Shown here piece by piece: positions 313 to 24,332 of a DNA stretch of 33,920 nucleotides (position 1 is the stretch's first letter; each line of letters starts with the position of its first letter). The notes below the pieces were generated by a model that saw nothing but the letters and a program-made list of their open reading frames with translations, had not been told where the DNA came from and made no database searches. The position numbers were made by a program, and so were the translations under genes. This DNA comes from Luminiphilus sp. (GTDB taxonomy: Bacteria; Pseudomonadota; Gammaproteobacteria; Pseudomonadales; Halieaceae), in assembly GCA_016779445.1 (NCBI GenBank), contig JADHNP010000020.1:1-33920 (forward strand). The letters run 5' to 3'.

Positions 313-858
313 TTACGGTGAAGGCAGTGCTTCCTCTATTGCTGCCGTCATTTCCTCGCTGTCTGGCGTGACGCCGCTTCCAAAATGCGCGAGCACTTCA
401 CCATTTGGTGAAACCAGATATTTGTTGAAGTTCCATCGTGGATAGCCAGCGGCCTCACCCAGGCCGCGGAATATCGGGTTAGCATCTTTACCTTTGATAG
501 CGGAGGTGGCCATCACGGGAAAAGATACGCTGTATTTTTCGAAGCACACCTCCGCGGCGTCTTCCTCATCATTGTCCTCTTGCCAAAAATCATCACTAGA
601 AAATCCTAGAACAGCTAATCCCTTGTTTTCATATGTTTGGTGGAGTTGCTCCAAACCTTCAAATTGAGGGGTGTAGCCGCAATAACTGGCGGTATTGACG
701 ATGAGTAACGCTTTGCCATCATACGCCTCGCAGAATTGGATCCTCTCAGTTGATCCCAGCGCTCGCATGGAATGATTTAAGAACTCCGGACATGCCACCA
801 AGAATCCTGAAAATGAAATACAGGTTAGCAGCATCACAAACGTTGTCGAGTGTTTCAT
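313..858 (-). CDS. Exported two-cysteine glutathione peroxidase (thioredoxin-dependent type)
   Basis: A 181-residue glutathione-peroxidase fold. The peroxidatic Cys60 lies in NTASYCGYTPQFEGL and the conserved Trp142 in RWNFNKYLV. Cys105 (VCFEKYSVSFPV) sits where two-cysteine GPx enzymes carry their resolving cysteine. This predicts a thioredoxin-like reductant rather than glutathione and reduction of hydroperoxides, possibly lipid hydroperoxides. The usual Gln-containing loop is replaced by GFSSDDFWQED, so the catalytic Gln is shifted or altered. Residues 1-22 form a signal peptide. LVAC at 20-23 could pass for a lipobox, but Cys23 and Cys43 could instead pair in a disulfide, so periplasmic versus lipoprotein is undecided. 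The ATG at 858 follows the hydrolase stop by 30 bp, consistent with one operon. Confidence 0.88.
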   Translation of the reverse strand: MKHSTTFVMLLTCISFSGFLVACPEFLNHSMRALGSTERIQFCEAYDGKALLIVNTASYCGYTPQFEGLEQLHQTYENKGLAVLGFSSDDFWQEDNDEEDAAEVCFEKYSVSFPVMATSAIKGKDANPIFRGLGEAAGYPRWNFNKYLVSPNGEVLAHFGSGVTPDSEEMTAAIEEALPSP

Positions 859-4692: not shown

Positions 4693-5289
4693 TCAATGCT
4701 CTGTGACAACCAAATCGGCGGTGAGAGATTCTCTTATCGAGTCAGCCACTGCATGCCGCGCCACCTGATGACTAGGATGATCAATGCCCGCATACAGCGG
4801 AGCGCCATCCTTTAGCGCATTGATTTGCTCCGGCGTCACTTCGAAACGTAAAAAGTGTACTGAGGCGGTTTTATCGGCCGTGGTTCTGTCGAGATCTTCA
4901 TCTGCAATCGGGACAATCCGATCTAGTTCACCCACCTGCAACCACACTTGATCTTCAATGCCAATCATCTCTCCCAGACGAATAGCGCGCTGTGCTGGGT
5001 CTGGGATTTCGATCATGAAAGTCGCCTTCCAATTCTGCCCGTCTGGTATGAGCGGGTTGTAGGCGCTCAGCTCTTCCTCGATACCCTCTGGTTCAAAAAC
5101 CCGCTCAATACGCAGCATTTCCTGAATTTGGTAGCGAATGGTGGTGGCGTCTTCGAAGTACAAACGCGCGTGCTCCCCCAGAGCAAGCTGTCGGTTTTTC
5201 TTATGCGCCATTACCTCAGCACGAAAATCCGCTCGTCGGGTCGCATATTCCTCGAGGCTCCAGAGGTCATTTCTCGTCAATTGTGTCAT
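4693..5289 (-). CDS. DUF3501 family protein
   Basis: A 198-residue soluble protein that I recognise as DUF3501 from its opening (TQLTRNDLWSLEEYATRR) and its body (GEHARLYFEDATTIRYQIQE). It has no cysteine, no signal peptide and no membrane segment; it is acidic and mixed alpha/beta in look. The biochemical function of the family is not known to me. From memory, these genes often sit beside a rubrerythrin and a GlpC-like Fe-S protein, exactly the arrangement here. The ATG at 5289 has a strong AAGGAG six bases upstream; an alternative start 78 bases earlier lacks support. A role as accessory or regulatory partner of the Fe-S protein is inference. Confidence 0.85.
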   Translation of the reverse strand: MTQLTRNDLWSLEEYATRRADFRAEVMAHKKNRQLALGEHARLYFEDATTIRYQIQEMLRIERVFEPEGIEEELSAYNPLIPDGQNWKATFMIEIPDPAQRAIRLGEMIGIEDQVWLQVGELDRIVPIADEDLDRTTADKTASVHFLRFEVTPEQINALKDGAPLYAGIDHPSHQVARHAVADSIRESLTADLVVTEH

Positions 5290-5347
5290 GTTGGTCTCCT
5301 TGAATACACTTCTGCGCCGTGCCTTATACGATGGCGCGCTCAAACAT

Positions 5348-6670
5348 TTATAGGCCATAGGCCTCACGTAACAACGTCATCGGGTGCTCTGCGCGATCTA
5401 CCTTTTCCGATAAGTGGGCAATGTGCTCGCCGGCCATAGGGCAGTCGCTGATAAACCGATCTGGCGCTTGCTCATCTACTTTCCTTACGGTCGGTCGAGC
5501 AATCTTTACAGATTTATCCCGCGTTTCCTTTTTAACCGCATAGGTCCCGTCGTGTCCCGAGCAGCGCTCATAGGGCGTGATGTCGCTGCCACTGATCAAA
5601 TTGAGAACGTCGCGTGTCTTAAGGCCAATATTCTGTACGCGTTGATGGCACGCTACCTGATAAGCAACGCTCCCCAGCATGGTCTGGAAGTCCGTGTTCA
5701 GTGCATCACCGCGGTGCCGCGCCCAAAGATACTCGAAGGGGTCATAGAAGGCCTGCTGCACTTTGAGCACGTCAGGATCTTCTGGGTACATGAGCGGGAG
5801 CTCCTGCTTGTACATCAAGACGCAGGAGGGAATCGGTGCCGTAAGGTCATACCCTTCATCAACGAGTTTGGCTAGCACGGGAATATTGGCTCGTTTGAGG
5901 GCATCAACACTATCGAGGTCGCCCAATTCAAATTTAGGCATACCGCAGCATTGCTCCTTCGGGACAATGTCGATGTGTATGTCGTTGTGCTGAAACACCT
6001 TTACGAAATCCTCTCCCAAGCTGGGGCTGTTGTAGTTTCCGTAGCAAGTTGCGTAGAGCGCTACTTTACCTGTCGTGTTGCCAACCGGTGTGGGCGCAAT
6101 GTCCTTGATTAACGGTTTGACTCGTTTACGCAAAGTTTTGCTGTGTAATTTTGGCAGTGGCGCTTCATGGTGTATGTCGAGCCCGGCTGATAAGGCTTTG
6201 CGGAAAACACCGGTCTGATTAAGAGCATTCACTGTAACGTCGACCAAGGGGATGGAGGTTGCGGAAAGGAGTCGGTCGGTGCTGGTTAGCGTCCTATCGC
6301 GCAAAGACGCTCCGTTTTCTTTGAAGCGTTGAGCTTTGGCTCTTAGCATCAAATGCGGAAAGTCGACATTGAATTCGTGTGGTGGTACGTAAGGGCACTT
6401 GGTCAGGTAGCAGAGATCACACATGTAGCATTGCTCTGCGACGTTTTGGTAATCCGATTTATTAACACCGTCAACCTCCATGGTTTCTGACTCATCGATC
6501 AGATCAAATAATGTCGGGAACGCATCGCACAGGCTGACGCAGCGGCGACAGCCATGGCAGACATCAAACACGCGCTCGAGCTCGTCATTCAAGGCGTCCT
6601 TGTTCCAAAAACTATCGTCTTGCCAGCCCAGCGGATGCCGGGTTGGGGCGTCGATGCTGCCTTCTCTCAT
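5348..6670 (-). CDS. GlpC/HdrD-like Fe-S oxidoreductase with two 4Fe-4S clusters and CCG domains
   Basis: A 440-residue protein related to heterodisulfide-reductase/GlpC electron-transfer subunits. Two ferredoxin-like clusters are visible: Cys38/41/44/48 (CHGCRRCVSLC) and Cys81/84/87/92 (CYMCDLCYLTKCP, with one extra residue in the last gap). A CCG-type domain follows: Cys209, Cys241-Cys242 (QCCGMPKFELGD), Cys283. A degenerate second one has Cys341, Cys370 and Cys410, where the first Cys of the CC pair is replaced by Arg369. No membrane segment is seen. It should pass electrons between a donor and a disulfide-like or di-iron centre. Annotation as glycerol-3-phosphate dehydrogenase subunit C would be misleading, since no glpA/glpB is present. 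Donating electrons to the rubrerythrin is my inference. Confidence 0.85.
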   Translation of the reverse strand: MREGSIDAPTRHPLGWQDDSFWNKDALNDELERVFDVCHGCRRCVSLCDAFPTLFDLIDESETMEVDGVNKSDYQNVAEQCYMCDLCYLTKCPYVPPHEFNVDFPHLMLRAKAQRFKENGASLRDRTLTSTDRLLSATSIPLVDVTVNALNQTGVFRKALSAGLDIHHEAPLPKLHSKTLRKRVKPLIKDIAPTPVGNTTGKVALYATCYGNYNSPSLGEDFVKVFQHNDIHIDIVPKEQCCGMPKFELGDLDSVDALKRANIPVLAKLVDEGYDLTAPIPSCVLMYKQELPLMYPEDPDVLKVQQAFYDPFEYLWARHRGDALNTDFQTMLGSVAYQVACHQRVQNIGLKTRDVLNLISGSDITPYERCSGHDGTYAVKKETRDKSVKIARPTVRKVDEQAPDRFISDCPMAGEHIAHLSEKVDRAEHPMTLLREAYGL

Positions 6671-6751
6671 TGCAATTGACTCTCGCTAATTGGCAAGGCT
6701 TTACCCGGTATAAAGCTGTCGCCTTTACCGGAGCCGAAATATGCTTAGGTG

Positions 6752-6787
6752 AAAAAACAAGGGGAGCACTTTCTGCTCCCCTTGTTT
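6752..6787 (-). terminator. Rho-independent terminator after rubrerythrin
   Basis: A 14-bp perfect stem (6755-6768 with 6774-6787) and a 5-base loop, read on the minus strand, is followed by a run of T. It lies 30 bp beyond the rubrerythrin stop. It should end most rubrerythrin transcripts before the Fe-S gene, so that gene needs its own promoter or read-through. On the plus strand there is no comparable T run. Confidence 0.9.
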
Positions 6788-6816
6788 ATCGGTTGAGCTG
6801 ATCGCTCGATGCCTTA

Positions 6817-7236
6817 TCAGGCGTCGAGGGTGTCTAACGCTTTTTGGAAACGGTTGGCGTGGCTACGCTCGGCCTTGGCCAAGGTTTCGAACCAGTCCGC
6901 TATCTCGTCAAAACCCTCGTCGCGGGCAGCTTTTGCCATGCCGGGGTACATGTCCGTGTACTCGTGGGTTTCGCCTGCGATTGATGCCTCCAGGTTTTTC
7001 TTAGTGTCGCCCATAGGCAGCCCAGTAGCCGGATCACCAACCTCCTCTAGGTATTCCAGGTGTCCGTGGGCGTGCCCTGTCTCACCCTCGGCAGTTGAAC
7101 GGAACACGGCCGCAACATCATTGTAGCCTTCGACGTCTGCCTTTGAGGCGAAGTAGAGATAGCGGCGGTTAGCTTGCGATTCGCCAGCAAACGCGTCCTT
7201 GAGATTTTGTTCAGTTGCACTTCCTTTCAATTCCAT
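6817..7236 (-). CDS. Rubrerythrin-family di-iron protein lacking the rubredoxin domain
   Basis: A 139-residue ferritin-like four-helix protein with all expected di-iron ligands: Glu19 ([11 protein letters not shown]), Glu52/His55 ([11 protein letters not shown]), a glutamate near 92 ([11 protein letters not shown]) and Glu123/His126 ([10 protein letters not shown]). Rubrerythrins reduce hydrogen peroxide to water at the di-iron site. The usual C-terminal rubredoxin domain with its Cys4 iron site is absent and the protein has no cysteine at all, as in sulerythrin-like members, so electrons must come from a separate protein. The ATG at 7236 follows a good AGGAG. A strong sigma70-like promoter lies upstream and a terminator downstream, so it is likely an abundant single-gene transcript. 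Its divergent neighbour is oxyR. Confidence 0.92.
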
Positions 7237-7282
7237 TTCTCACTCCTGTTATGGCCTGAATCGCACCGATGTGGCGGCATCA

Positions 7283-7311
7283 CTTATACATATACCGCAC
7301 TAACTACTCAA
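7283..7311 (-). promoter_or_regulatory. Predicted sigma70 promoter of rubrerythrin gene
   Basis: Read on the minus strand, a -35 element TTGAGT (7306-7311) is separated by exactly 17 bp from a -10 element TATAAG (7283-7288). This places the start of transcription near 7276 and gives a leader of about 40 bases. The repeated ATATACCG at 7290-7297 and 7311-7318 (21 bp apart, two helical turns) overlaps the spacer and the -35, and could be an operator. Confidence 0.6.
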
Positions 7312-7358
7312 TATACCGATGTGATTGCCAATTGGCTTACTGAAAATATAAAAAAATT

Positions 7359-7377
7359 TAATCGAAAAAACCGATTA
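7359..7377. promoter_or_regulatory. LysR-type (OxyR candidate) binding site
   Basis: TAATCG (7359-7364) and CGATTA (7372-7377) form a perfect inverted repeat around a 7-bp spacer. It contains ATC-N9-GAT, the T-N11-A core typical of LysR-family regulators. It lies in a very AT-rich stretch (7341-7377) of the 280-bp gap between the rubrerythrin gene and oxyR, where OxyR would be expected to bind. It does not closely match the longer four-part OxyR consensus, so it may be only part of a site. The rest of the gap (7378-7506) shows nothing clear. Confidence 0.45.
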
Positions 7378-7516
7378 TGCTTGCGTCACCACTTTTAGAG
7401 ACCGGACCGCACCCGCCAGGCAGTATCTGTGACCGAACAGCATTGCGCTTGGCATTTCGTTTAATGTGCGCGGGCCCTATATCTCTGGAGAGTAATTGAA
7501 CTGCTAAGGAGGGCGT

Positions 7517-8416
7517 GTGAGACAGCCGACACTAAAACAACTTCGCTACTTGTGCGCGGTCGCCGACCACCAGCATTTTGGTCAGGCTGCGGCTGCCTCT
7601 CATGTGAGCCAGAGCACTTTGAGTGCCGGCATTCTTGAACTGGAGGAAACACTGGGTGTGAGCTTGGTGGAGCGAAATAACCGCAAAGTGATTCTGACTC
7701 CCATAGGCGACGAGGCGGTCGATCGAGCACGGGAGTTGCTGGTCGGTATCGAAGACATGGTTTCGGTTTGTGCGGGAGCAGGAAAGCCGTTTCATGGAAA
7801 AATGCGACTGGGCGTTATCCCCACGATCGCGCCTTATCTGCTGCCGGGGCTTTTGAAACAGATTCGCCATCGATATCCGGAATTCCAGCTTTTTATAAGA
7901 GAGGATCTCAGCCAACCCCTGGTCGACGCTCTTCAGGCGGGGGAGTTGGACGTGTTGCTCCTGGCGCTGCCTTTTCCTGCCGAGCAGGTAGAAACCATGT
8001 CGCTGTTTGAGGATGAGTTTCTGTTGGCCTTTCCGAAATCTCACGCGCTGGCGACCCGAGGAACGCTTCGAATCGCAGATCTCAAGGGAGAGGCGCTGCT
8101 GCTATTAGAGGAGGGACATTGCTTGCGGGATCACGCCTTGGAGGCCTGTAAGTTGCGTGATTCGCAAATTACGGTCCCTTATCAGGCGACCAGTCTTACT
8201 ACTATTGTGCAAATGGTGGCGAACGGCATCGGAATCACACTGCTGCCCCAAATGGCAGTAGGGGCGGGAATAGCCAGCAGCACAGACTTGGTGATTAAGC
8301 CGTTCAAGCAGGCGAAGGTCACGCGTAGGATTGGACTGATGTGGCGTAAAAAGACGCCGAGAACCGTAGAGTTCCGGCAGCTCGGCGATGTCATCAGTGG
8401 ATTGATCGCGGTGTGA
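7517..8416 (+). CDS. oxyR: Hydrogen-peroxide-sensing transcriptional regulator OxyR
   Basis: A 299-residue LysR-type regulator. An N-terminal winged helix-turn-helix (about 1-62, TLKQLRYLCAVADHQHFGQA) binds DNA, and a periplasmic-binding-like domain follows. The redox pair that defines OxyR is intact: Cys202 and Cys211 in GHCLRDHALEAC, nine residues apart as in E. coli Cys199/Cys208. Peroxide oxidises the pair to a disulfide and switches the tetramer to activate catalase, peroxiredoxin and related genes. The start is a GTG preceded by a near-perfect AAGGAGGG. It is transcribed divergently from the rubrerythrin gene and may control it from the shared gap. It ends 10 bp from the convergent ygiQ stop. 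Confidence 0.95.
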   Translation: MRQPTLKQLRYLCAVADHQHFGQAAAASHVSQSTLSAGILELEETLGVSLVERNNRKVILTPIGDEAVDRARELLVGIEDMVSVCAGAGKPFHGKMRLGVIPTIAPYLLPGLLKQIRHRYPEFQLFIREDLSQPLVDALQAGELDVLLLALPFPAEQVETMSLFEDEFLLAFPKSHALATRGTLRIADLKGEALLLLEEGHCLRDHALEACKLRDSQITVPYQATSLTTIVQMVANGIGITLLPQMAVGAGIASSTDLVIKPFKQAKVTRRIGLMWRKKTPRTVEFRQLGDVISGLIAV

Positions 8417-16462: not shown

Positions 16463-17332
16463 GTGCTTGAAACAAGTCAAGATGAATCGGGACGAGCAGA
16501 TCCACGCAAGGGTCGGCTTGAGTTCAACAAATTGAGAAAGCGTCTGCGGCGCCAGGTGGGTAAAGCAATCGCTGACTTCGAGCTGATTGAACCCGGCGAT
16601 CGTGTCATGGTCTGTATTTCTGGCGGGAAGGATTCCCATGCGATGCTGGAGATCCTGATGGCACTGCGCGACAGTGCGCCGATTGATTTTGAGATTGTGG
16701 CGGTCACTCTTGATCAGAAACAGCCGGGGTATCCCGAGGAAGTACTGCCGGGGTATCTGGAAACGCTCAATATTCCTTTTTATATTCTCGAGAGAGATAC
16801 ATATAGTGTCGTGCGGTCGGTGATTCCCGAAGGGAAAACGACTTGTGGACTGTGCTCTCGACTGCGGCGGGGCACACTCTATGGCTTTGCCGATCAAATT
16901 GGCGCGAGTAAGATCGCGCTCGGTCATCATCGGGACGATATCGTGGAAACGTTGTTCCTGAATCTCTTTTTTGGCGGAAAGCTGAAGGCGATGCCTGCCA
17001 AACTGAAAAGTGACGATGGCAGACACATCGTGATTCGACCGCTGGCTTATTGCAAAGAGTCTGATCTTGAGCGGTACGCGAGCGATATGCAGTTTCCGAT
17101 TATTCCCTGCAACCTATGCGGTACTCAGGAAAATCTGCAGCGTCAGGAGATAAAGAAAATGCTCCGGGAGTGGGAGCGAGGTTACCCAGGGCGCACGGAG
17201 ACAATATTTCGGGCGCTTGGGAATGTTGCTCCGTCGCATTTGCTGGACCGCGCTTTGTTTGATTTCGAGGGGCTGGCAGTCGAAGTGGACGCCAGTTTGG
17301 GGCTGCCGGAAATCGGTGTTGTGAACCTCTGA
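16463..17332 (+). CDS. ttcA: tRNA 2-thiocytidine(32) synthetase TtcA
   Basis: A 289-residue tRNA-modifying enzyme that adds sulfur to cytidine 32. The ATP-binding PP-loop is SGGKDS (53-58). Two CxxC pairs, Cys128/131 ([10 protein letters not shown]) and Cys216/219 (CNLCG), supply the catalytic ligands, three of which hold a 4Fe-4S cluster in this family. No ATG is suitably placed. A GTG at 16463 gives an N-terminus about the length of E. coli TtcA, whereas the open frame upstream runs antisense to mdh and is not real. An ATG at 16385 is the less likely alternative. The stop codon overlaps the ccmA start (TGATG), tying it to the cytochrome c maturation operon. Confidence 0.93.
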
Positions 17333-17928
17333 TGAGCCTGCTGGATGCAAAGGATGTTGCGATTGAAAGAGGAGACCGCTCGCTATTGCGGGGCATATCC
17401 CTGAGCGTCGAGGCGGGCGAGTTGTGGCAGCTCATTGGGCCAAATGGTGTCGGTAAAAGCAGTTTGATACGCGCCTTAGCGGGGCTGGCGCGTTTGGGCG
17501 TAGACGGCGATATCTGTCGCTCCGCCGCGGCGCTATACATTGGCCACAGTTCTGCGCTCAAGCGTGCATTAACACCGGTTGACAATTTGCGCTGTCATCC
17601 CGCATGTGACGTCACGGTGGGAGATGAGCAGATCGCACAGGCTTTGCAATCTGTGAGTCTAGCGGGTTACGAATCAGTACCGGTTGGCGCCTTGTCTGCG
17701 GGGCAGCAGCGGCGAGTGGCGCTGGCAAGATTGCTCCTTAGTGATGCGCGCTTATGGTTTTTGGATGAGCCGTTTACAGCGCTGGATGCTATGGGTTGTG
17801 AGTGGTTGGAGCAGCAGATTGCAGAGCACATTCAGCTTGGTGGCGCGGTGCTATTTACCAGCCATCAGCAAAGTCGCTTTGGCGCGCAACAACACAACCT
17901 TGACCTCTCGTTATATGTCAGTGCCTGA
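17332..17928 (+). CDS. ccmA: Haem exporter ATP-binding protein CcmA
   Basis: A 198-residue ABC ATPase with Walker A GPNGVGKS (36-43), a family-typical variant signature LSAGQQRR (from 121) and Walker B WFLDEP (from 142). In System I it uses ATP to release haem-loaded CcmE from the CcmC complex. Its start codon shares a base with the ttcA stop, and its end overlaps ccmB by 14 bp. Confidence 0.95.
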   Translation: MSLLDAKDVAIERGDRSLLRGISLSVEAGELWQLIGPNGVGKSSLIRALAGLARLGVDGDICRSAAALYIGHSSALKRALTPVDNLRCHPACDVTVGDEQIAQALQSVSLAGYESVPVGALSAGQQRRVALARLLLSDARLWFLDEPFTALDAMGCEWLEQQIAEHIQLGGAVLFTSHQQSRFGAQQHNLDLSLYVSA

Positions 17929-18619
17929 TTCCGATAGCCTGTCTTTGGGAGCCGCTTTCTATCGGCAGTTTCTCCGGCATGGCAAAGCCTTGATCTCCAG
18001 TCCCGCCGATTTGGTCAATCCACTGCTGTTTTTTTTCATGGTGATTACCTTGTTCCCCTTGGGTCTGGGTCCAGACCCTGAGCGGCTGTCGCAGATGGCA
18101 CCGGGGATCTTGTGGGTAGTTGCTTTACTTGCCAGTTTAATGGTCAGCGGCAAGCTCTTCGCCTCAGATTTTGAGGATGGCAGCCTCGAGCAACTGTGCC
18201 TTGCGCCTCAGCCACTCGCAATTTTGGCTCTTGCGGAAGTGCTGGCGCATTGGCTTGGCACGGGGTTTTTACTGTCCATGGTTTCCCCCCTTTTTGCCGT
18301 ACTGGTGGGGTTACCCACTCAGGCGCTACCCGTATTGTTTATGAGTCTATTACTCGGATCTTTGTGCCTCACGCTGATTGGCGCCGTGGGCAGTGCGCTG
18401 ACTGTCAGCATCCGGCGCGGAGGAGTGCTGCTCTCGGTGATCATCATTCCACTTCACGTACCTGTTTTGTTATTTGGCAGCACGGCGGTAGTAGAGGCTG
18501 CTCGAGATGGTAATCCTGTGAGCTGGTTGGCGTTGCTCGCAGCACTCGTCCTGATGTCTTTGGCGCTGGCGCCGCTGGCAATAGGGGCGGCCTTGCGAAT
18601 CTCGCTTGATAATGGCTGA
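17915..18619 (+). CDS. ccmB: Haem exporter permease CcmB
   Basis: A 234-residue inner-membrane protein with about six helices and the CcmB features: the segment YRQFLRHGKALISSPADLVNP near the start, FASDFEDGSLEQL in the middle, and LLSVIIIPLHVPVLLFG in the second half. It partners CcmA. The likely start is the ATG at 17915, which overlaps ccmA by 14 bp; a GTG at 17921 would also serve. The frame extends upstream through ccmA but that part is out of register with CcmB. An 80-bp gap follows, the only sizeable one in the ccm run. Confidence 0.93.
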   Translation: MSVPDSDSLSLGAAFYRQFLRHGKALISSPADLVNPLLFFFMVITLFPLGLGPDPERLSQMAPGILWVVALLASLMVSGKLFASDFEDGSLEQLCLAPQPLAILALAEVLAHWLGTGFLLSMVSPLFAVLVGLPTQALPVLFMSLLLGSLCLTLIGAVGSALTVSIRRGGVLLSVIIIPLHVPVLLFGSTAVVEAARDGNPVSWLALLAALVLMSLALAPLAIGAALRISLDNG

Positions 18620-18665
18620 CCACTGTCAGGGACTTAATGCAATCAGCCCAGCGATGGGAGGGCGA

Positions 18666-18693
18666 TTCAACAAGTCTACTTAGGCGCTATACT
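18666..18693 (+). promoter_or_regulatory. Possible internal promoter before ccmC
   Basis: In the 80-bp ccmB-ccmC gap, TATACT (18688-18693) is a good -10, with a poor -35 TTCAAC (18666-18671) at 16 bp. Transcription would begin at about the ccmC ATG (18700), implying a leaderless message, so this may be chance. Confidence 0.25.
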
Positions 18694-18699
18694 TGAGTT

Positions 18700-19437
18700 A
18701 TGTGGTCATTTATTCACAAGCTGGGTTCTCCCCCCTGGTTCTTCCGCTTCAGTGGCAACGTGGTGAAATGGTTGCTGCCGGTGACCATCGCTGTGCTCTT
18801 CGTTGGCGCCTTCTGGGGCTTGTTGGTGGCTCCGCCTGATTACCGTCAGGGCAACTCCTATCGCATCATCTACATACATGTGCCTGCGGCGGTTGTCTCG
18901 CTGGCGGGTTATTACGTAATGGCTCTGGCGGGCGCCATCAGTCTCATTTGGCGGATAAAGATGGCGGATATCGCGATGAAAGCGGCAGCCCCCGTCGGCG
19001 CGGTGCTGACCGGCATTGCGCTCGTAACGGGTGCTATATGGGGGAAGCCCACCTGGGGTACTTGGTGGGTGTGGGACGCTCGTATTACGTCGATGTTGAT
19101 TCTGTTTTTTTTGTATCTCGGGGTGGTGGCGTTGTTTGAGGCTTACGAGAACAAGGCGGCTGCGGCCAAAGCCTGTGCCGTCTTGAGCCTCGTGGGGACG
19201 GTCAATATTCCTATCATCTATAAGTCAGTCGACTGGTGGTACTCCCTGCATCAACCTGCATCGATTAAATTTACGGGCGAGTCGGCGATTGATGCGAGCA
19301 TGTTGTACCCTTTGCTCCTCATGATTACGGCGTTTTATGGCTTGTTTGCACTGGTGGTCATGATGAACATGCGTGCTGACTTGGTTTGGCATCACCGACA
19401 ATCTTCTTGGGTAAGGCAGTGGGCGGGATTTGAGTGA
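18700..19437 (+). CDS. ccmC: Haem-handling protein CcmC
   Basis: A 245-residue, six-helix inner-membrane protein that loads haem onto CcmE. The tryptophan-rich haem motif WGTWWVWDAR is at 119-128. The two axial haem histidines align at His60 (YIHVPAA) and His184 (SLHQPAS), numbers that match the E. coli protein. The start ATG is weakly supported by an upstream TTGAG. The stop overlaps the ccmD start as TGATG. Confidence 0.96.
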   Translation: MWSFIHKLGSPPWFFRFSGNVVKWLLPVTIAVLFVGAFWGLLVAPPDYRQGNSYRIIYIHVPAAVVSLAGYYVMALAGAISLIWRIKMADIAMKAAAPVGAVLTGIALVTGAIWGKPTWGTWWVWDARITSMLILFFLYLGVVALFEAYENKAAAAKACAVLSLVGTVNIPIIYKSVDWWYSLHQPASIKFTGESAIDASMLYPLLLMITAFYGLFALVVMMNMRADLVWHHRQSSWVRQWAGFE

Positions 19438-19691
19438 TGTATTTTGATTCCCTAACAGCGGTCGCGCACATGGATGGCCATGGCATTTATGTCTGGCTGG
19501 CCTATGCCATCACGATGGTGCTGCTGTCTTGGTTGCTGTGGTCTCCGTCGCGCGAGTTGCGCAAGCGAAAACTGTGGATTGTCGCAGAAGCACGCAGGCG
19601 CGCCGCATCGACCAACGCTACCCCGGAAGCGGAAACGCAAAGTGAGCAGGCAATGTCAACAGACCGTGCGCAAATGGAGACTCAGGGCTGA
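19437..19691 (+). CDS. ccmD: Haem exporter small subunit CcmD (long form)
   Basis: An 84-residue single-helix protein with the CcmD pattern of a short outside lead (MDGHGIYVWLAYAITMV) followed by a basic cytoplasmic segment RELRKRK. CcmD holds CcmE in the CcmABC complex. It is longer than many CcmD proteins because of an acidic, Ser/Thr-rich tail (about 55-84). The ATG at 19437 overlaps the ccmC stop; a GTG one codon earlier is possible. The stop overlaps the ccmE start (TGATG). Confidence 0.88.
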   Translation: MYFDSLTAVAHMDGHGIYVWLAYAITMVLLSWLLWSPSRELRKRKLWIVAEARRRAASTNATPEAETQSEQAMSTDRAQMETQG

Positions 19692-20143
19692 TGCATCCGC
19701 TCCGCAAACAGAGGTTGTACGGGGTGAGTCTGATCGTTTTGCTCTCAAGCGCAGCCATTGGACTGGTCGCTTTTGCATTGAGAGACAATATCAATTTGTT
19801 CTACCCCCCCTCCGAAGTTGCTGCAGGCAATGCGCCAGCTGACAGAAATATTCGCTTGGGTGGTATGGTGGTCGAAGGGAGTATTGAGCGCAGCGAGACC
19901 AGCTTGGCAACCCAGTTTTTGGTTACCGACTACGAGGCTTCCGTATCGGTACGCTATACAGGAATCCTTCCCGATCTTTTCGCCGAGGGTCAAGGAGTGG
20001 TCGCTGAAGGGCGGTTGAATGCATCGAGAGAATTGATTGCTACGCAGATATTGGCGAAGCACGACGAGAATTACATGCCTCCTGAGGTGGCCGCAGCACT
20101 GGAAGGCAAGAGCAGCGCACCGGCGGACTCGCTACTGCCATGA
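19691..20143 (+). CDS. ccmE: Periplasmic haem chaperone CcmE
   Basis: A 150-residue protein anchored by one N-terminal helix (about 10-30) with a periplasmic OB-fold domain. The haem-binding motif HDENYMPPEV is intact: His124 attaches covalently to a haem vinyl group and Tyr128 is an axial ligand. It receives haem from CcmC and delivers it to CcmF/CcmH. Its start overlaps the ccmD stop, and its own stop overlaps ccmF by 4 bp (ATGA). Confidence 0.96.
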   Translation: MHPLRKQRLYGVSLIVLLSSAAIGLVAFALRDNINLFYPPSEVAAGNAPADRNIRLGGMVVEGSIERSETSLATQFLVTDYEASVSVRYTGILPDLFAEGQGVVAEGRLNASRELIATQILAKHDENYMPPEVAAALEGKSSAPADSLLP

Positions 20144-22125
20144 TCCCAGAACTCGGTCATATCTCGCTGATTATTGCTTTCGTACTCGCTATTGGCCTGA
20201 CAGTGATCCCTTTTTGGGGCAGCTTCAGGACTAACGTCGCCGCAATGAATCTTGCGCCATCTCTGGCGGTGGGCATTTTGGTGTTTACTGCGACGGCCTT
20301 TGGGCTGCTCGCAACCAGCTTTTTGCAGGACGATTTTTCGGTCGCGGTGGTGGCGGCCAACTCAAACAGCCTGCTGCCACCTATTTTTAAATTTTCCGCG
20401 TTGTGGGGGAATCACGAGGGGTCTTTGCTCCTATGGGTGTTGATCCTTTCCACTTGGATGACGGCCGTCGCTTTTTTGTGTCGTGTTTTGCCGCTGACGA
20501 TGATCGCTCGTGTGTTGAGTGTCATGGGTTTAATAGCGGTTGGGTTTCTGGCCTTCTCGCTCCTCACTTCCAACCCATTTGAGAGGCTGTTGCCCAATAC
20601 GCCGCTTGATGGCAGCGATCTCAATCCACTATTACAAGATCCCGGCCTTATTATTCATCCGCCACTGCTCTACATGGGATATGTCGGACTATCCGTTCCC
20701 TTTGCCTTTGCCATTGCTGCGCTCATCGGCGGACGGTTGGACGCTTCCTGGGCACGTTGGTCGAGACCATGGACCAACGTCGCTTGGGGGTTTCTCACGC
20801 TTGGGATCATGCTGGGTAGTTGGTGGGCTTACTACGAATTAGGGTGGGGAGGCTGGTGGTTTTGGGACCCGGTAGAGAACGCCTCATTTATGCCCTGGCT
20901 GATGGGTACAGCGCTCGTGCATAGTTTAGCGGTAACCGAAAAGCGTGGCGTGTTCCGATCGTGGACTGTCCTTTTGGCTATCTTCGCCTTCTCCTTATCG
21001 TTGCTGGGAACCTTCCTTGTTCGATCAGGCGTGCTGACCAGCGTTCACGCATTTGCCGCCGATCCAGAGCGAGGCCTGTTCATTCTGGTGTTTCTGGCTC
21101 TCGTAGTCGGCGGATCTCTGCTCTTGTACGCACTGAGGGCGCCCGCGGTGGCCAGTCGGGTCGAATACAACGTGATCTCCCGAGAGTCGCTTTTAATGGT
21201 TAATAATTTGGTGTTCACCGTCGCGGCGACGATTGTCCTCTTGGGCACGCTGTTCCCGCTAGTGATGGACGCCTTCTCGCTGGGTAAATATTCTGTGGGC
21301 CCCCCCTATTTCAATGCAGTATTTGTGCCGTTGATGGCATTGCTGATGCCATTTATGAGTATCGGGCCCATTTCACGATGGCGCCAGGATTCCCCCAGAC
21401 GCTGGCTGCATGAGCTGCTGGTTCCCGCAATCGCTATGGCAGCCCTCGCGCCGCTGTTGTCCATGATGCTGTTTGACTTCAATCTGTGGGTTGCTCTGGC
21501 TGTGTTACTGGCCGGCTGGGTAACCTTGGGTGTTCTACGCGATGTTTGGCGTCGGCTTGCTGTGGGCGGATCCGGAGGCTTGCAATGGCAGAGGCTGTCT
21601 CCCAGCTTCCTTGGGATGACCTTTGCGCATATTGGTTTTGCGGCCGTGGTGCTGGGGGCGGTCGTTGTGACTCAGCACTCGGAGGAGCAAGATCTGAGGA
21701 TGACTGAGGGTCAGAGCGCAGAGTTGGGGGGATATCGCTTCGAGATGACACACATTAGTCAGGAGCCTGGCGCCAATTACGTTGCAGATCAGGCCACTTT
21801 TGTAGTCAGCTATGACGATAAAATAATCGCGACGTTGGTTCCGGAGAAGCGACGTTATCTGGCCAGTGGTCAAGTGATGACTGAGGCGGCCATCGACGCA
21901 GGAATTCTGCGCGATCTCTACATCGCGTTGGGAGAACCTATTGGAGAGCGCGCATGGGCGGTGCGACTGCAATATAAACCCATGGTGCGGTGGCTTTGGA
22001 TAGGGGCTTTCCTGATCGGTTTTGGTGCGCTGCTAACGTCATTGGATCGGCGTTACCGGGTGCAGGTCGTCAGCGGGCAAGAGCCCAGTCCTGTCAAGGG
22101 CCAGGGCCTTGGATTTGCACGCTAG
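20140..22125 (+). CDS. ccmF: Cytochrome c haem lyase subunit CcmF
   Basis: A 661-residue polytopic inner-membrane protein, the haem ligation core of System I. The WWD haem motif WGGWWFWDPVENASF lies at 236-250. The conserved periplasmic and membrane histidines are represented by His173 (IIHPPLLYMGY) and His261 (LVHSLAV), among others. A large periplasmic domain occupies about 505-610 before the last helix. It takes haem from CcmE and joins it to the apocytochrome CxxCH presented by CcmH/CcmI. The length is normal for the family. The 3' end overlaps ccmG. Confidence 0.97.
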   Translation: MIPELGHISLIIAFVLAIGLTVIPFWGSFRTNVAAMNLAPSLAVGILVFTATAFGLLATSFLQDDFSVAVVAANSNSLLPPIFKFSALWGNHEGSLLLWVLILSTWMTAVAFLCRVLPLTMIARVLSVMGLIAVGFLAFSLLTSNPFERLLPNTPLDGSDLNPLLQDPGLIIHPPLLYMGYVGLSVPFAFAIAALIGGRLDASWARWSRPWTNVAWGFLTLGIMLGSWWAYYELGWGGWWFWDPVENASFMPWLMGTALVHSLAVTEKRGVFRSWTVLLAIFAFSLSLLGTFLVRSGVLTSVHAFAADPERGLFILVFLALVVGGSLLLYALRAPAVASRVEYNVISRESLLMVNNLVFTVAATIVLLGTLFPLVMDAFSLGKYSVGPPYFNAVFVPLMALLMPFMSIGPISRWRQDSPRRWLHELLVPAIAMAALAPLLSMMLFDFNLWVALAVLLAGWVTLGVLRDVWRRLAVGGSGGLQWQRLSPSFLGMTFAHIGFAAVVLGAVVVTQHSEEQDLRMTEGQSAELGGYRFEMTHISQEPGANYVADQATFVVSYDDKIIATLVPEKRRYLASGQVMTEAAIDAGILRDLYIALGEPIGERAWAVRLQYKPMVRWLWIGAFLIGFGALLTSLDRRYRVQVVSGQEPSPVKGQGLGFAR

Positions 22126-22675
22126 GCGCTTTATTCCTCTGCTGGGGTTTGTATTGCTGTCGGTGCTGTTGTTCCGGGGCTTGTCGCTGGATCCCACTTC
22201 ATTGCCGGCGGCCAGATTGGGACAGATATTTCCCGAGTTTGCAAAACTGGAGTTGCAATCCGGTGACGTAATATCAGTTGTGGATTTGAATCAGCGTCCT
22301 GCCCTCGTCAATGTTTGGGCAACCTGGTGTTATTCCTGCCGCATCGAACACCCTTATTTATTGGAATTAGCGAAATCGGGGGTGCCTATTTACGGCCTTA
22401 ACTATAAAGATGACCCGGTGAAAGCGAGAGGGTGGTTGGCCCAGTTGGGTGATCCCTATCGGTTAAACATCGTCGATGATGAGGGGTCTCTTGGATTGGA
22501 TCTGGGGGTTTATGGAGCGCCGGAGACCTATGTAATCGATAGGGATGGCAAAATTGTCCATCGGCATGTCGGCATTCTTGATCAAAGTGTTTTCCGCGCC
22601 GATTTTAGTGCATGGTTTCCCGCTTTGATGGATGCGCAAGCGCCTGTTGCGCAGCGCGCTTTGGAGGGAAAATGA
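22109..22675 (+). CDS. ccmG: Thiol:disulfide reductase CcmG (DsbE)
   Basis: A 188-residue thioredoxin-fold protein tethered by an N-terminal helix (about 8-25). The active site is WCYSC (Cys74, Cys77); the Tyr-Ser pair between the cysteines differs from the more common Pro-containing CcmG sites. The cis-proline loop GAPETYVID and the family acidic region (LNYKDDPVKARGWL) are present. It reduces the apocytochrome CxxCH before haem attachment. No ATG is available: TTG at 22109 or 22115, each with a purine-rich AGGG-type signal upstream, must be used, within the end of ccmF. The stop overlaps ccmH by 4 bp (ATGA). Confidence 0.95.
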   Translation: MDLHARRFIPLLGFVLLSVLLFRGLSLDPTSLPAARLGQIFPEFAKLELQSGDVISVVDLNQRPALVNVWATWCYSCRIEHPYLLELAKSGVPIYGLNYKDDPVKARGWLAQLGDPYRLNIVDDEGSLGLDLGVYGAPETYVIDRDGKIVHRHVGILDQSVFRADFSAWFPALMDAQAPVAQRALEGK

Positions 22676-23166
22676 CGGCGAGTCGAGTTGTACTAGCGAG
22701 ACACGGCCGTATCAGCTTCGCATGGTCACTGTTGTTGTGGGCCCTTACTCCGGTTGCTCACGCATTGATCGAAACCTATGAATTTTCTTCGCCTGCTTTG
22801 GAGCAGAGGTACCAAGTGCTGAGTCAAGAGTTACGGTGCCCTAAATGTCAAAATCAGAACATTGCTGACTCGAATGCGCCCATCGCCCGCGATCTTCGTG
22901 TCGTGCTCGTTGAGCAATTGGAAGCAGGTCAGACCGACGAGCAGATTTTGGCGTTCATGGTGGCGCGCTACGGGGAGTTTGTTCGCTATCGACCAACGGT
23001 TGATCGCAACACAGCCTTGCTCTGGTGGGCACCTGGTTTATTGATCGGCGCAGGATTCGTTGCACTGGCGTTCCATTTTAAAGGACGCCGCCGAGTGGCC
23101 GCACCCGCACTAACCGCTACCGAAGCCGCTCAGTTAAAGAAGCTCATGGAAAACGATTCTCTATGA
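22672..23166 (+). CDS. ccmH: Apocytochrome thiol oxidoreductase CcmH
   Basis: A 164-residue protein with a signal peptide (about 1-31), a short three-helix periplasmic domain bearing LRCPKCQNQNIADSNAP (Cys56, Cys59), and one C-terminal helix (about 119-137). This is the short CcmH/CcmL type that forms a mixed disulfide with apocytochrome c after reduction by CcmG. The ATG at 22672 has GGAGGG just upstream and overlaps the ccmG stop; a longer frame lies inside ccmG. The stop overlaps ccmI by 4 bp. Confidence 0.95.
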   Translation: MTASRVVLARHGRISFAWSLLLWALTPVAHALIETYEFSSPALEQRYQVLSQELRCPKCQNQNIADSNAPIARDLRVVLVEQLEAGQTDEQILAFMVARYGEFVRYRPTVDRNTALLWWAPGLLIGAGFVALAFHFKGRRRVAAPALTATEAAQLKKLMENDSL

Positions 23167-24332
23167 ATTCGTATTTTTGGGTGTTTTCGGCCCTGCTACT
23201 GACTGTCGCGACGGTCTTCGTCGTGATGTTGCCGAAGCGCTGGGAACGCCGAGCAGCACCCGAAAATAATGCCGACTGGTTGCGGCTTAGACAGCGAGAG
23301 TTGTTGGATAGCGCCCCCGAACTTCGGGAAGAAGCAGCGCTTAGGGTCATTGAGGATGGGTTTATCTCGGACGCGCCAGCGGTCGCGCTGCCAGCACACT
23401 ATTCGACAAAACGTCAGCTCTTGGGTGTAACCGCACTCTTTATTTTGGTCGCCGGTCTCTATGTGAAACTGGGAAGTTTTGAAGATGTGGTGATTACAGA
23501 GGCGCTTGATGGGCTAGACAGCGCCAGCCCCGCAGATATCTCGGCACTGATAGAACGGATTGGGCGTCGCGCTGACGTGCGGCCAAAGAACGCCGATTAC
23601 TCGCTGCTATTGGCTGAGTACCACTTATCGACCAATGAGCCTTTACTCGCCTTAGGCTATTTCGACAGGCTTATTGAGGGCGGTGCGACATCGCCTGAAA
23701 TACTGGGTAAGGCGGCTCAAGCCGAGTTCTTATCTGCTGATCGCCAGCTCAGTGAACGTGCTCGATCGCGAGCTCAACAGGCGCTGGCTCTCGATCCTAT
23801 GGCTTCAGCTGCGCTGGCCACGCTGGGGATGGCGGCTTTCGAGGCTGCGGATTTCGCAGCAGCGATTCGTTATTGGGAGACACTGCGATCTTTGGAGCCC
23901 GAGGGTTCCCCCGGCCATCAGATGCTGGGTCAGGTGATCGAGCGCGCCCGCAGCGAAATGGCCGACTCCAACACACTTCCCGAGGTTCCGGTGGGGCTCG
24001 TGGTTCGAGCTACTCTCCCTGATGCCTTTGAGGTTGACCCTGAGGCGACGGTATACGTCTTGGCGCGACCAGAACAGCAGCAAGGCGGTATGCCGATTGC
24101 GGTTGTCAGGATAAGGGCGGAAGAGTGGCCGCTGGTGGTTCCACTGGACGACGGGCACTCTATGGCCGGTCAGAAGCTCTCGAACTTCAATACCGTTGCC
24201 GTAGAGGTGCAGGTCTCGGTAAATGGACAGCCCGGCAGAGACAACAGCATCGCCTGGGGGGTAGTGAATTCGGCGACGGTCGGTGCTTCTGAGCCAGTTG
24301 CTGTGGTGCTTGAACCGACAGGCTCACGTTAA
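23163..24332 (+). CDS. ccmI: Apocytochrome c chaperone CcmI
   Basis: A 389-residue protein with two N-terminal helices (about 4-23 and 82-100) flanking a cytoplasmic loop, a periplasmic TPR region (about 130-260) and a C-terminal beta-rich domain (about 275-389) containing the typical VYVLARPEQQQGGMPIAVV. The TPR domain binds the C-terminal helix of apocytochrome c and hands it to CcmH/CcmF. Its ATG overlaps the ccmH stop. It ends the ccm run; 116 bp of non-coding DNA before smc show no clear terminator. Confidence 0.94.
   Translation: MNSYFWVFSALLLTVATVFVVMLPKRWERRAAPENNADWLRLRQRELLDSAPELREEAALRVIEDGFISDAPAVALPAHYSTKRQLLGVTALFILVAGLYVKLGSFEDVVITEALDGLDSASPADISALIERIGRRADVRPKNADYSLLLAEYHLSTNEPLLALGYFDRLIEGGATSPEILGKAAQAEFLSADRQLSERARSRAQQALALDPMASAALATLGMAAFEAADFAAAIRYWETLRSLEPEGSPGHQMLGQVIERARSEMADSNTLPEVPVGLVVRATLPDAFEVDPEATVYVLARPEQQQGGMPIAVVRIRAEEWPLVVPLDDGHSMAGQKLSNFNTVAVEVQVSVNGQPGRDNSIAWGVVNSATVGASEPVAVVLEPTGSR

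Follow-up and report, generated by a model that had tools for sequence, protein, structure and literature searches.

A probable OxyR-controlled rubrerythrin, RFO and DUF3501 module in Luminiphilus sp. with a promoter motif shared with katG

Genes and features of the locus

The window analysed in this study is a stretch of 33,920 nucleotides of Luminiphilus sp. (GenBank assembly GCA_016779445.1, contig JADHNP010000020.1, positions 1 to 33,920; contig C24 in our numbering), from an assembly of 2.47 Mb that is 86.8% complete. It carries the genes of a rubrerythrin (rbr), a GlpC-like iron-sulfur (Fe-S) protein (rfo) and a DUF3501 protein, together with an oxyR gene divergent from rbr. These four genes had been named in an initial annotation made from the sequence alone, and all were found again by profile matches (Table 1). 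The trio rbr, rfo and DUF3501 is the aerobic-type rubrerythrin/RFO/DUF3501 module already described by Cardenas, Quatrini and Holmes in 2016, who named RFO and counted the triple co-occurrence in 185 of 4461 genomes (PMC5114695). Both descriptions have in common the three genes, a rubrerythrin lacking rubredoxin, a GlpC-related Fe-S protein and the same proposal for RFO. What looks new relative to the published trio is the sequence evidence for a joint control of the trio and katG by OxyR, and for a terminator that parts rbr from the two other genes. The nearest named locus (L071), from a Luminiphilus metagenome-assembled genome, keeps the order OxyR, rbr, rfo, DUF3501 and HAD genes, with an RFO identity of 78%, in line with a host that is probably a Luminiphilus-like marine gammaproteobacterium.

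Table 1. Positions of the genes and regulatory features in the window.
Feature	Position	Strand	Evidence
rbr, aerobic-type rubrerythrin, 139 aa	6817..7236	-	PF02915 E 1.3e-30; solved rubrerythrin matches
rfo, GlpC-like Fe-S protein (RFO), 440 aa	5348..6670	-	PF02754 E 2.7e-12; 15 invariant cysteines; model matches LutA, EtfD, HdrB
DUF3501 gene, 198 aa from likely ATG, no cysteine	4693..5289	-	PF12007 E 3.4e-70; solved relative 3fjv
oxyR, divergent from rbr, redox cysteine pair	7517..8416	+	NF008361, 231.8 bits; cysteines aligned
ATCG-N7-CGAT, candidate OxyR half-site of rbr promoter	7361..7375		28 of 28 examined genus loci; also upstream of katG
TATATT, candidate -10 of rbr promoter	7310..7315	-	Alignment; fixed distance from candidate OxyR site
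Intrinsic terminator between rbr and rfo, 14-bp stem and U run	6755..6787	-	-27.6 kcal/mol, z -7.0

The rubrerythrin has no cysteine and no rubredoxin domain, as had been noted initially, and differs in this from classical rubrerythrins, which carry a rubredoxin domain at the C-terminus. The solved rubrerythrins 9onm, 4di0 and 8fuh match it with E values down to 4.2e-75, and sulerythrin 1j30 with E 1.6e-51. Residues E19, E52, H55, E89, E92, E123 and H126, which we take to be the di-iron ligands annotated earlier as complete, were invariant in the 13 sequences aligned. The conserved ligand positions, the lack of a rubredoxin domain and the adjacent RFO and DUF3501 genes place it within the aerobic-type module.

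Fifteen cysteines of RFO were invariant in 25 of 25 proteins. Two groups of four, C38/41/44/48 and, with the spacing CX2CX2CX4CP, C81/84/87/92, support the two 4Fe-4S motifs of the initial annotation; Fer4_8 matched below its cut-off (21.8 of 27 bits). The CCG domains that it had also listed stood in part: PF02754 was matched and the first motif is formed by C209, C241, C242 and C283, but the second (C341/C370-S371/C410) is degenerate, with CSG in place of CCG. HdrB-type proteins have two complete CCG motifs, each ending in CxxC, whereas neither motif of RFO has a CxxC. The predicted structure (pLDDT 88) matched LutA 9a6l (Z 23.9, 2.2 Å, 227 residues), EtfD 9ojn over most of the length of RFO (Z 21.7, 3.4 Å, 362 residues) and HdrB 8rvu (Z 19.8, 2.6 Å, 231 residues); on this model RFO has the CCG-domain fold of HdrB/LutA-type proteins. 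A sequence search of solved chains at E 0.01 gave no match for RFO, and none was found in the viral contigs searched.

RFO thus shares Fe-S motifs and CCG-type halves with GlpC, LutA, EtfD and HdrB, and is set apart from them by its degenerate second CCG motif and the lack of a dehydrogenase partner in the window. An identity as GlpC was rejected, since both GlpC models scored too low (209.1 bits against a cut-off of 278, and 131.3 against 279.9) and the context is unfitting: a Pfam scan of 26 window proteins turned up no glycerol-3-phosphate dehydrogenase, in agreement with the initial annotation. Its warning that such genes are easily mislabelled glpC is already in print for Sulfolobus, where a 2009 paper held that the 'glpC' next to rubrerythrin probably has a different function (PMC2739297).

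The DUF3501 open reading frame had been listed as 4693-5367 (-), starting with GTG at 5367; the family assignment was sustained by the profile match, but the start is probably the ATG at 5289. The solved protein 3fjv of B. pseudomallei is related to it by sequence (E 1.3e-54) and to its predicted structure (pLDDT 93) by fold (Z 27.5, 1.5 Å, 192 residues). It is the only fold match that stood out, and is solved but functionally unexplained. CrdA was considered as a relative and rejected, since unrelated folds reach Z values like its 6.2, and we do not propose that the two are related. Since the window protein has no cysteine, Fe-S clusters of its own are unlikely, and its role in the module is proposed from gene association. 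DUF3501-RFO fusions have been reported in print; the eight candidates considered here (three frames of more than 600 amino acids and five others) all hold separate genes. Four genomes of the genus have additional, divergent DUF3501-like matches with E values of 1e-16 to 1e-20 (G022 contig C7, G035 contig C22, G012 contig C148 and G021 contig C12), and in G022, G035 and G012 they lie away from the trio.

Conservation of the trio

A survey of the gene neighbourhood across genomes had been suggested with the initial annotation. We used 232 genomes drawn evenly from the class, at least 95% complete, apart from the window's own genome. DUF3501 was found in 102, RFO in 103 and a strong rubrerythrin match (E below 1e-70) in 101. 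All three were present in 99 of the 105 genomes with any of them, a figure obtained by comparing the three genome lists by eye and referring to co-occurrence within a genome, not to adjacency; the remaining 127 had none. The exceptions were one genome without RFO (G107), one with rbr alone (G083), two with RFO alone (G146, G226) and two without rbr and with a partial RFO (G209, G263). Among 80 loci picked by RFO, DUF3501 was present in 76 and rbr in 72, and several of the misses are contig ends. In two loci (L077, L078) RFO is seen without rbr or DUF3501 in the stretch covered, and in L075 only DUF3501 is missing, with rbr, RFO and an OxyR-like gene all present.

Within the genus, DUF3501 was matched in 31 of 36 relatives, weakly in two (G020, G021), and the five without a match are all less than 90% complete. 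The order of the trio is kept in the genus loci, which are by selection those with the trio. The loci examined outside the genus (87) comprise the best-scoring RFO relatives, eight of the same order and eight picked by frame length or divergence. The order kept in the genus and the co-occurrence across the class argue that the association is more than chance, and the survey thus bore out the initial grouping.

OxyR and the rbr promoter

The description of the divergent gene as a true OxyR is upheld by its cysteine pair, in GHCLRDHALEAC, by its best solved relative (7l4s, named OxyR; E 6.5e-70) and by its best NCBIfam model, NF008361, whose cut-off of 329 bits it does not reach; this model exceeded its cut-off in one of 14 control genomes. 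It is the sole match with both cysteines in the incomplete assembly of its own genome. In 27 of 29 genus loci, OxyR and rbr are transcribed divergently, the exceptions being L041, where 350 bases upstream are present, and L066. Outside the genus, an OxyR-like gene was located no more than 3 kb from rbr in 20 of the 87 loci, in divergent, co-directional or downstream position; a single one was found in all the remaining flanking DNA of these loci, about 656 kb. Among the 20, one is weak, without cysteines and doubtful (L154), and two lack the second cysteine (L075, L157). They are not independent events, given the near-copies (L118, L132, L133) and several closely related loci. In L044, the OxyR sequence runs over more than one frame. 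The variety of arrangements speaks for a functional link and not for a single inherited layout.

In the alignment, the rbr promoters of the genus have a conserved palindrome and a -10 in common. ATCG-N7-CGAT occurs upstream of rbr in all 28 genus loci examined, against 0.18 expected (expected counts for motif and terminator are from shuffled sequences), and in 27 of them an 8-base string holding the -10 begins 57-59 nt after its first base. These counts leave out L042 and about 14 of the 87 other loci, where the start pattern failed or less than 150 nt lay upstream. The same motif precedes katG in 18 of 20 genus loci, these being the 20 best matches; under another start rule it was present in 17 of 18 (0.15 expected), the exception being L174 with none within the limit, and L176 and L178 left out as unparsed. 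Outside the genus, ATAG-N7-CTAT was found upstream of rbr in 14 of 73 loci (0.19 expected) and ATCG-N7-CGAT in six (0.40 expected); in L075, L088, L089 and L114, another palindrome of related sequence follows at a distance of 22 bp. The motif alone is not rare: the 443,443 bases of the genus loci contain 60 exact copies, of which 30 have an A/T-rich core. In the window's own genome the A/T-core form occurs at eight places, including rbr/oxyR and katG (contig C75), and a reversed control pattern at one; the other six places look unrelated, judged from translations and not from Pfam.

OxyR half-sites are 15 bp long with a T-N11-A layout, and that of E. coli has the ATAG form. The window system shares this layout and the cysteine pair with E. 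coli-type regulation, and a variant OxyR-type half-site at the rbr promoter is what, by sequence, would assign rbr to an OxyR regulon. In addition, the recognition helix of the OxyRs beside ATCG sites (window clade, L043, L074) reads SQSTLSA..ELE, and that of OxyRs in loci with ATAG sites SQPTLS..KLE; in two loci (L103, L143), ATCG sites, possibly there by chance, go with the ordinary helix. The match of helix and operator is a lead and not a test, as it may be one historical change. The claim that OxyR controls at least the rubrerythrin is thus well supported at the level of sequence by the candidate operator. The scan for sigma-70 promoters found nothing. OxyR control of the trio was not met in the literature searched, a weak negative given the partial search; the main text of Cardenas et al. 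does not have the word OxyR (PMC5114695), and the OxyR sites and the terminator are additions made here.

Terminator between rbr and rfo

The hairpin behind rbr was missed by a standard terminator scan, spotted in the sequence by eye and then tested. By a fixed rule, a terminator was present in the rbr-rfo gap of 30 of 36 genus and order loci (0.4 expected) and of 22 of 79 other loci (0.6 expected), compared with none of 26 and one of 50 rfo-DUF3501 control gaps. The scarcity in the control gaps is partly trivial, since these are short (medians 21.5 and 17.5 nt). The terminator predicts more rbr than rfo message, and an excess of rubrerythrin would fit RFO either as a catalytic reductase or with another job.

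Other genes of the window

A glutathione-peroxidase family protein (PF00255, E 3.3e-22) is encoded at 313-858 (-), about 4 kb from the trio, and is possibly a further peroxide enzyme. A cytochrome c maturation cluster (ABC transporter, CcmB, CcmC-like, CcmF, redoxin, CcmH and CycH) occupies 17332-24332 (+). A PADLOC scan gave no match.

Function of the module and alternative explanations

We consider that the group is probably an OxyR-controlled peroxide-reduction module of the aerobic-type rubrerythrin kind. Peroxide would oxidise OxyR, as its cysteine pair suggests, and OxyR would bind ATCG-N7-CGAT upstream of the rbr promoter and activate rbr as it would katG. Some transcripts would stop behind rbr, leaving more rubrerythrin than RFO and DUF3501 protein. 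The rubrerythrin would reduce peroxide at its di-iron site, a step shown elsewhere for ferriperoxin. RFO, as an Fe-S carrier of the GlpC/LutA/EtfD class, would most likely stand in for rubredoxin as the source of electrons, and DUF3501 would most likely help RFO and rubrerythrin to meet; these last two steps are the weakest. The role of RFO as a donor replacing rubredoxin is plausible and is the published hypothesis, Cardenas et al. having proposed that RFO compensates for the lost rubredoxin domain (PMC5114695).

The peroxide-reduction function put forward in the initial annotation gains support from the co-occurrence of the trio and, by analogy, from three other organisms. In B. pseudomallei, bpss1837, bpss1838 and bpss1839, annotated as hypothetical, ferredoxin and rubrerythrin, showed a joint rise of 3.3-3.4 log units at 10 min of treatment with 100 µM H2O2, with katG at 3.64 (PMC4175613); from names and order we infer that they are DUF3501, RFO and rbr. 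Ferriperoxin of Hydrogenobacter thermophilus, a rubredoxin-less rubrerythrin like that of the window, acts as a peroxidase in vitro with NADPH and ferredoxin:NADPH reductase (FNR), and its disruptant showed no aerobic growth (PMC3317640). Both observations, and the OxyR-type sites upstream of rbr, make it highly improbable that the trio serves mainly oxygen or iron handling, an idea that the place of rubrerythrins in the ferritin-like superfamily (PF00210 also matches the window protein) would favour. In S. solfataricus after H2O2, 'glpC' (SSO2643), beside rubrerythrin, rose 5.2-fold and SSO2644 6.7-fold (PMC2739297).

Several observations weigh against OxyR-controlled peroxide reduction as we propose it. 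Outside the genus, no OxyR gene was seen near 67 of the 87 trio loci, and an exact half-site is missing from the majority of the 73 examined; within it, L066 keeps ATCG-N7-CGAT upstream of rbr, yet there is no OxyR in 5.5 kb upstream. The window operator is not the ATAG half-site of E. coli-type OxyR, and a search for the four-tetrad OxyR site with up to three mismatches found none in the window. In S. solfataricus, two rubrerythrin protein spots went down 3.1- to 3.8-fold after H2O2 (PMC2739297), and in B. pseudomallei bpss1837-1839 are listed as sigma-E dependent in the same table as their induction (PMC4175613), which argues against OxyR acting alone in that species. The last point and the divergence of the motif, a site known from sequence, from that of E. 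coli could mean that ATCG-N7-CGAT belongs to another regulator and that the OxyR neighbourhood is incidental. The 15-bp T-N11-A layout, the same motif at katG, the recurrence of OxyR linkage in different geometries and the ATAG sites of other lineages make this very unlikely.

The donor is where an alternative has more ground. The rubrerythrin may be a peroxidase fed by a general reductase, either FNR or the rubredoxin-rubredoxin reductase fusion of the own genome, with RFO and DUF3501 doing something else, for instance maintaining the di-iron site or delivering electrons to quinone. This fusion (contig C107, L189; 458 amino acids), in which a rubredoxin is joined to a pyridine-nucleotide oxidoreductase that has a rubredoxin-binding domain, is a possible rival donor. 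EtfD, which RFO resembles over most of its length, passes electrons to quinone, and rbr and rfo have a terminator between them. In vitro, FNR and NADPH suffice for ferriperoxin activity, with no need of RFO (PMC3317640); the RFO gene of H. thermophilus lies apart from the other two (PMC5114695). There are also Thermoproteales with rbr and DUF3501 and no RFO (PMC5114695), which counts against RFO as an established donor. On the other side, RFO co-occurs near-strictly with this rubrerythrin across the class. FNR is a broad-acting reductase, so its action in vitro is perhaps not physiological. We therefore hold supply by a general reductase to be rather unlikely. A more speculative and quite doubtful conjecture is that, in the Luminiphilus-like clade, recognition helix and operator changed together (from SQPTLS..KLE with ATAG-N7-CTAT to SQSTLSA..ELE with ATCG-N7-CGAT), with one OxyR running katG and the trio, and that the EtfD-like RFO draws from the quinone or ETF pool, which would make a respiration-coupled and not NAD(P)H-coupled peroxidase.

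Returning to the OxyR-controlled module that we favour, the presence of katG and of the rubredoxin-rubredoxin reductase fusion in the own genome indicates that the trio is not the sole scavenger, nor RFO the sole possible donor. The conserved site shared with katG makes the OxyR control directly testable. The trio is widespread, with one report from Acidihalobacter (PMC7760498) and another that places it in the mitochondria of eukaryotes and proposes that the mitochondrion of their last common ancestor had it (PMC7050145).

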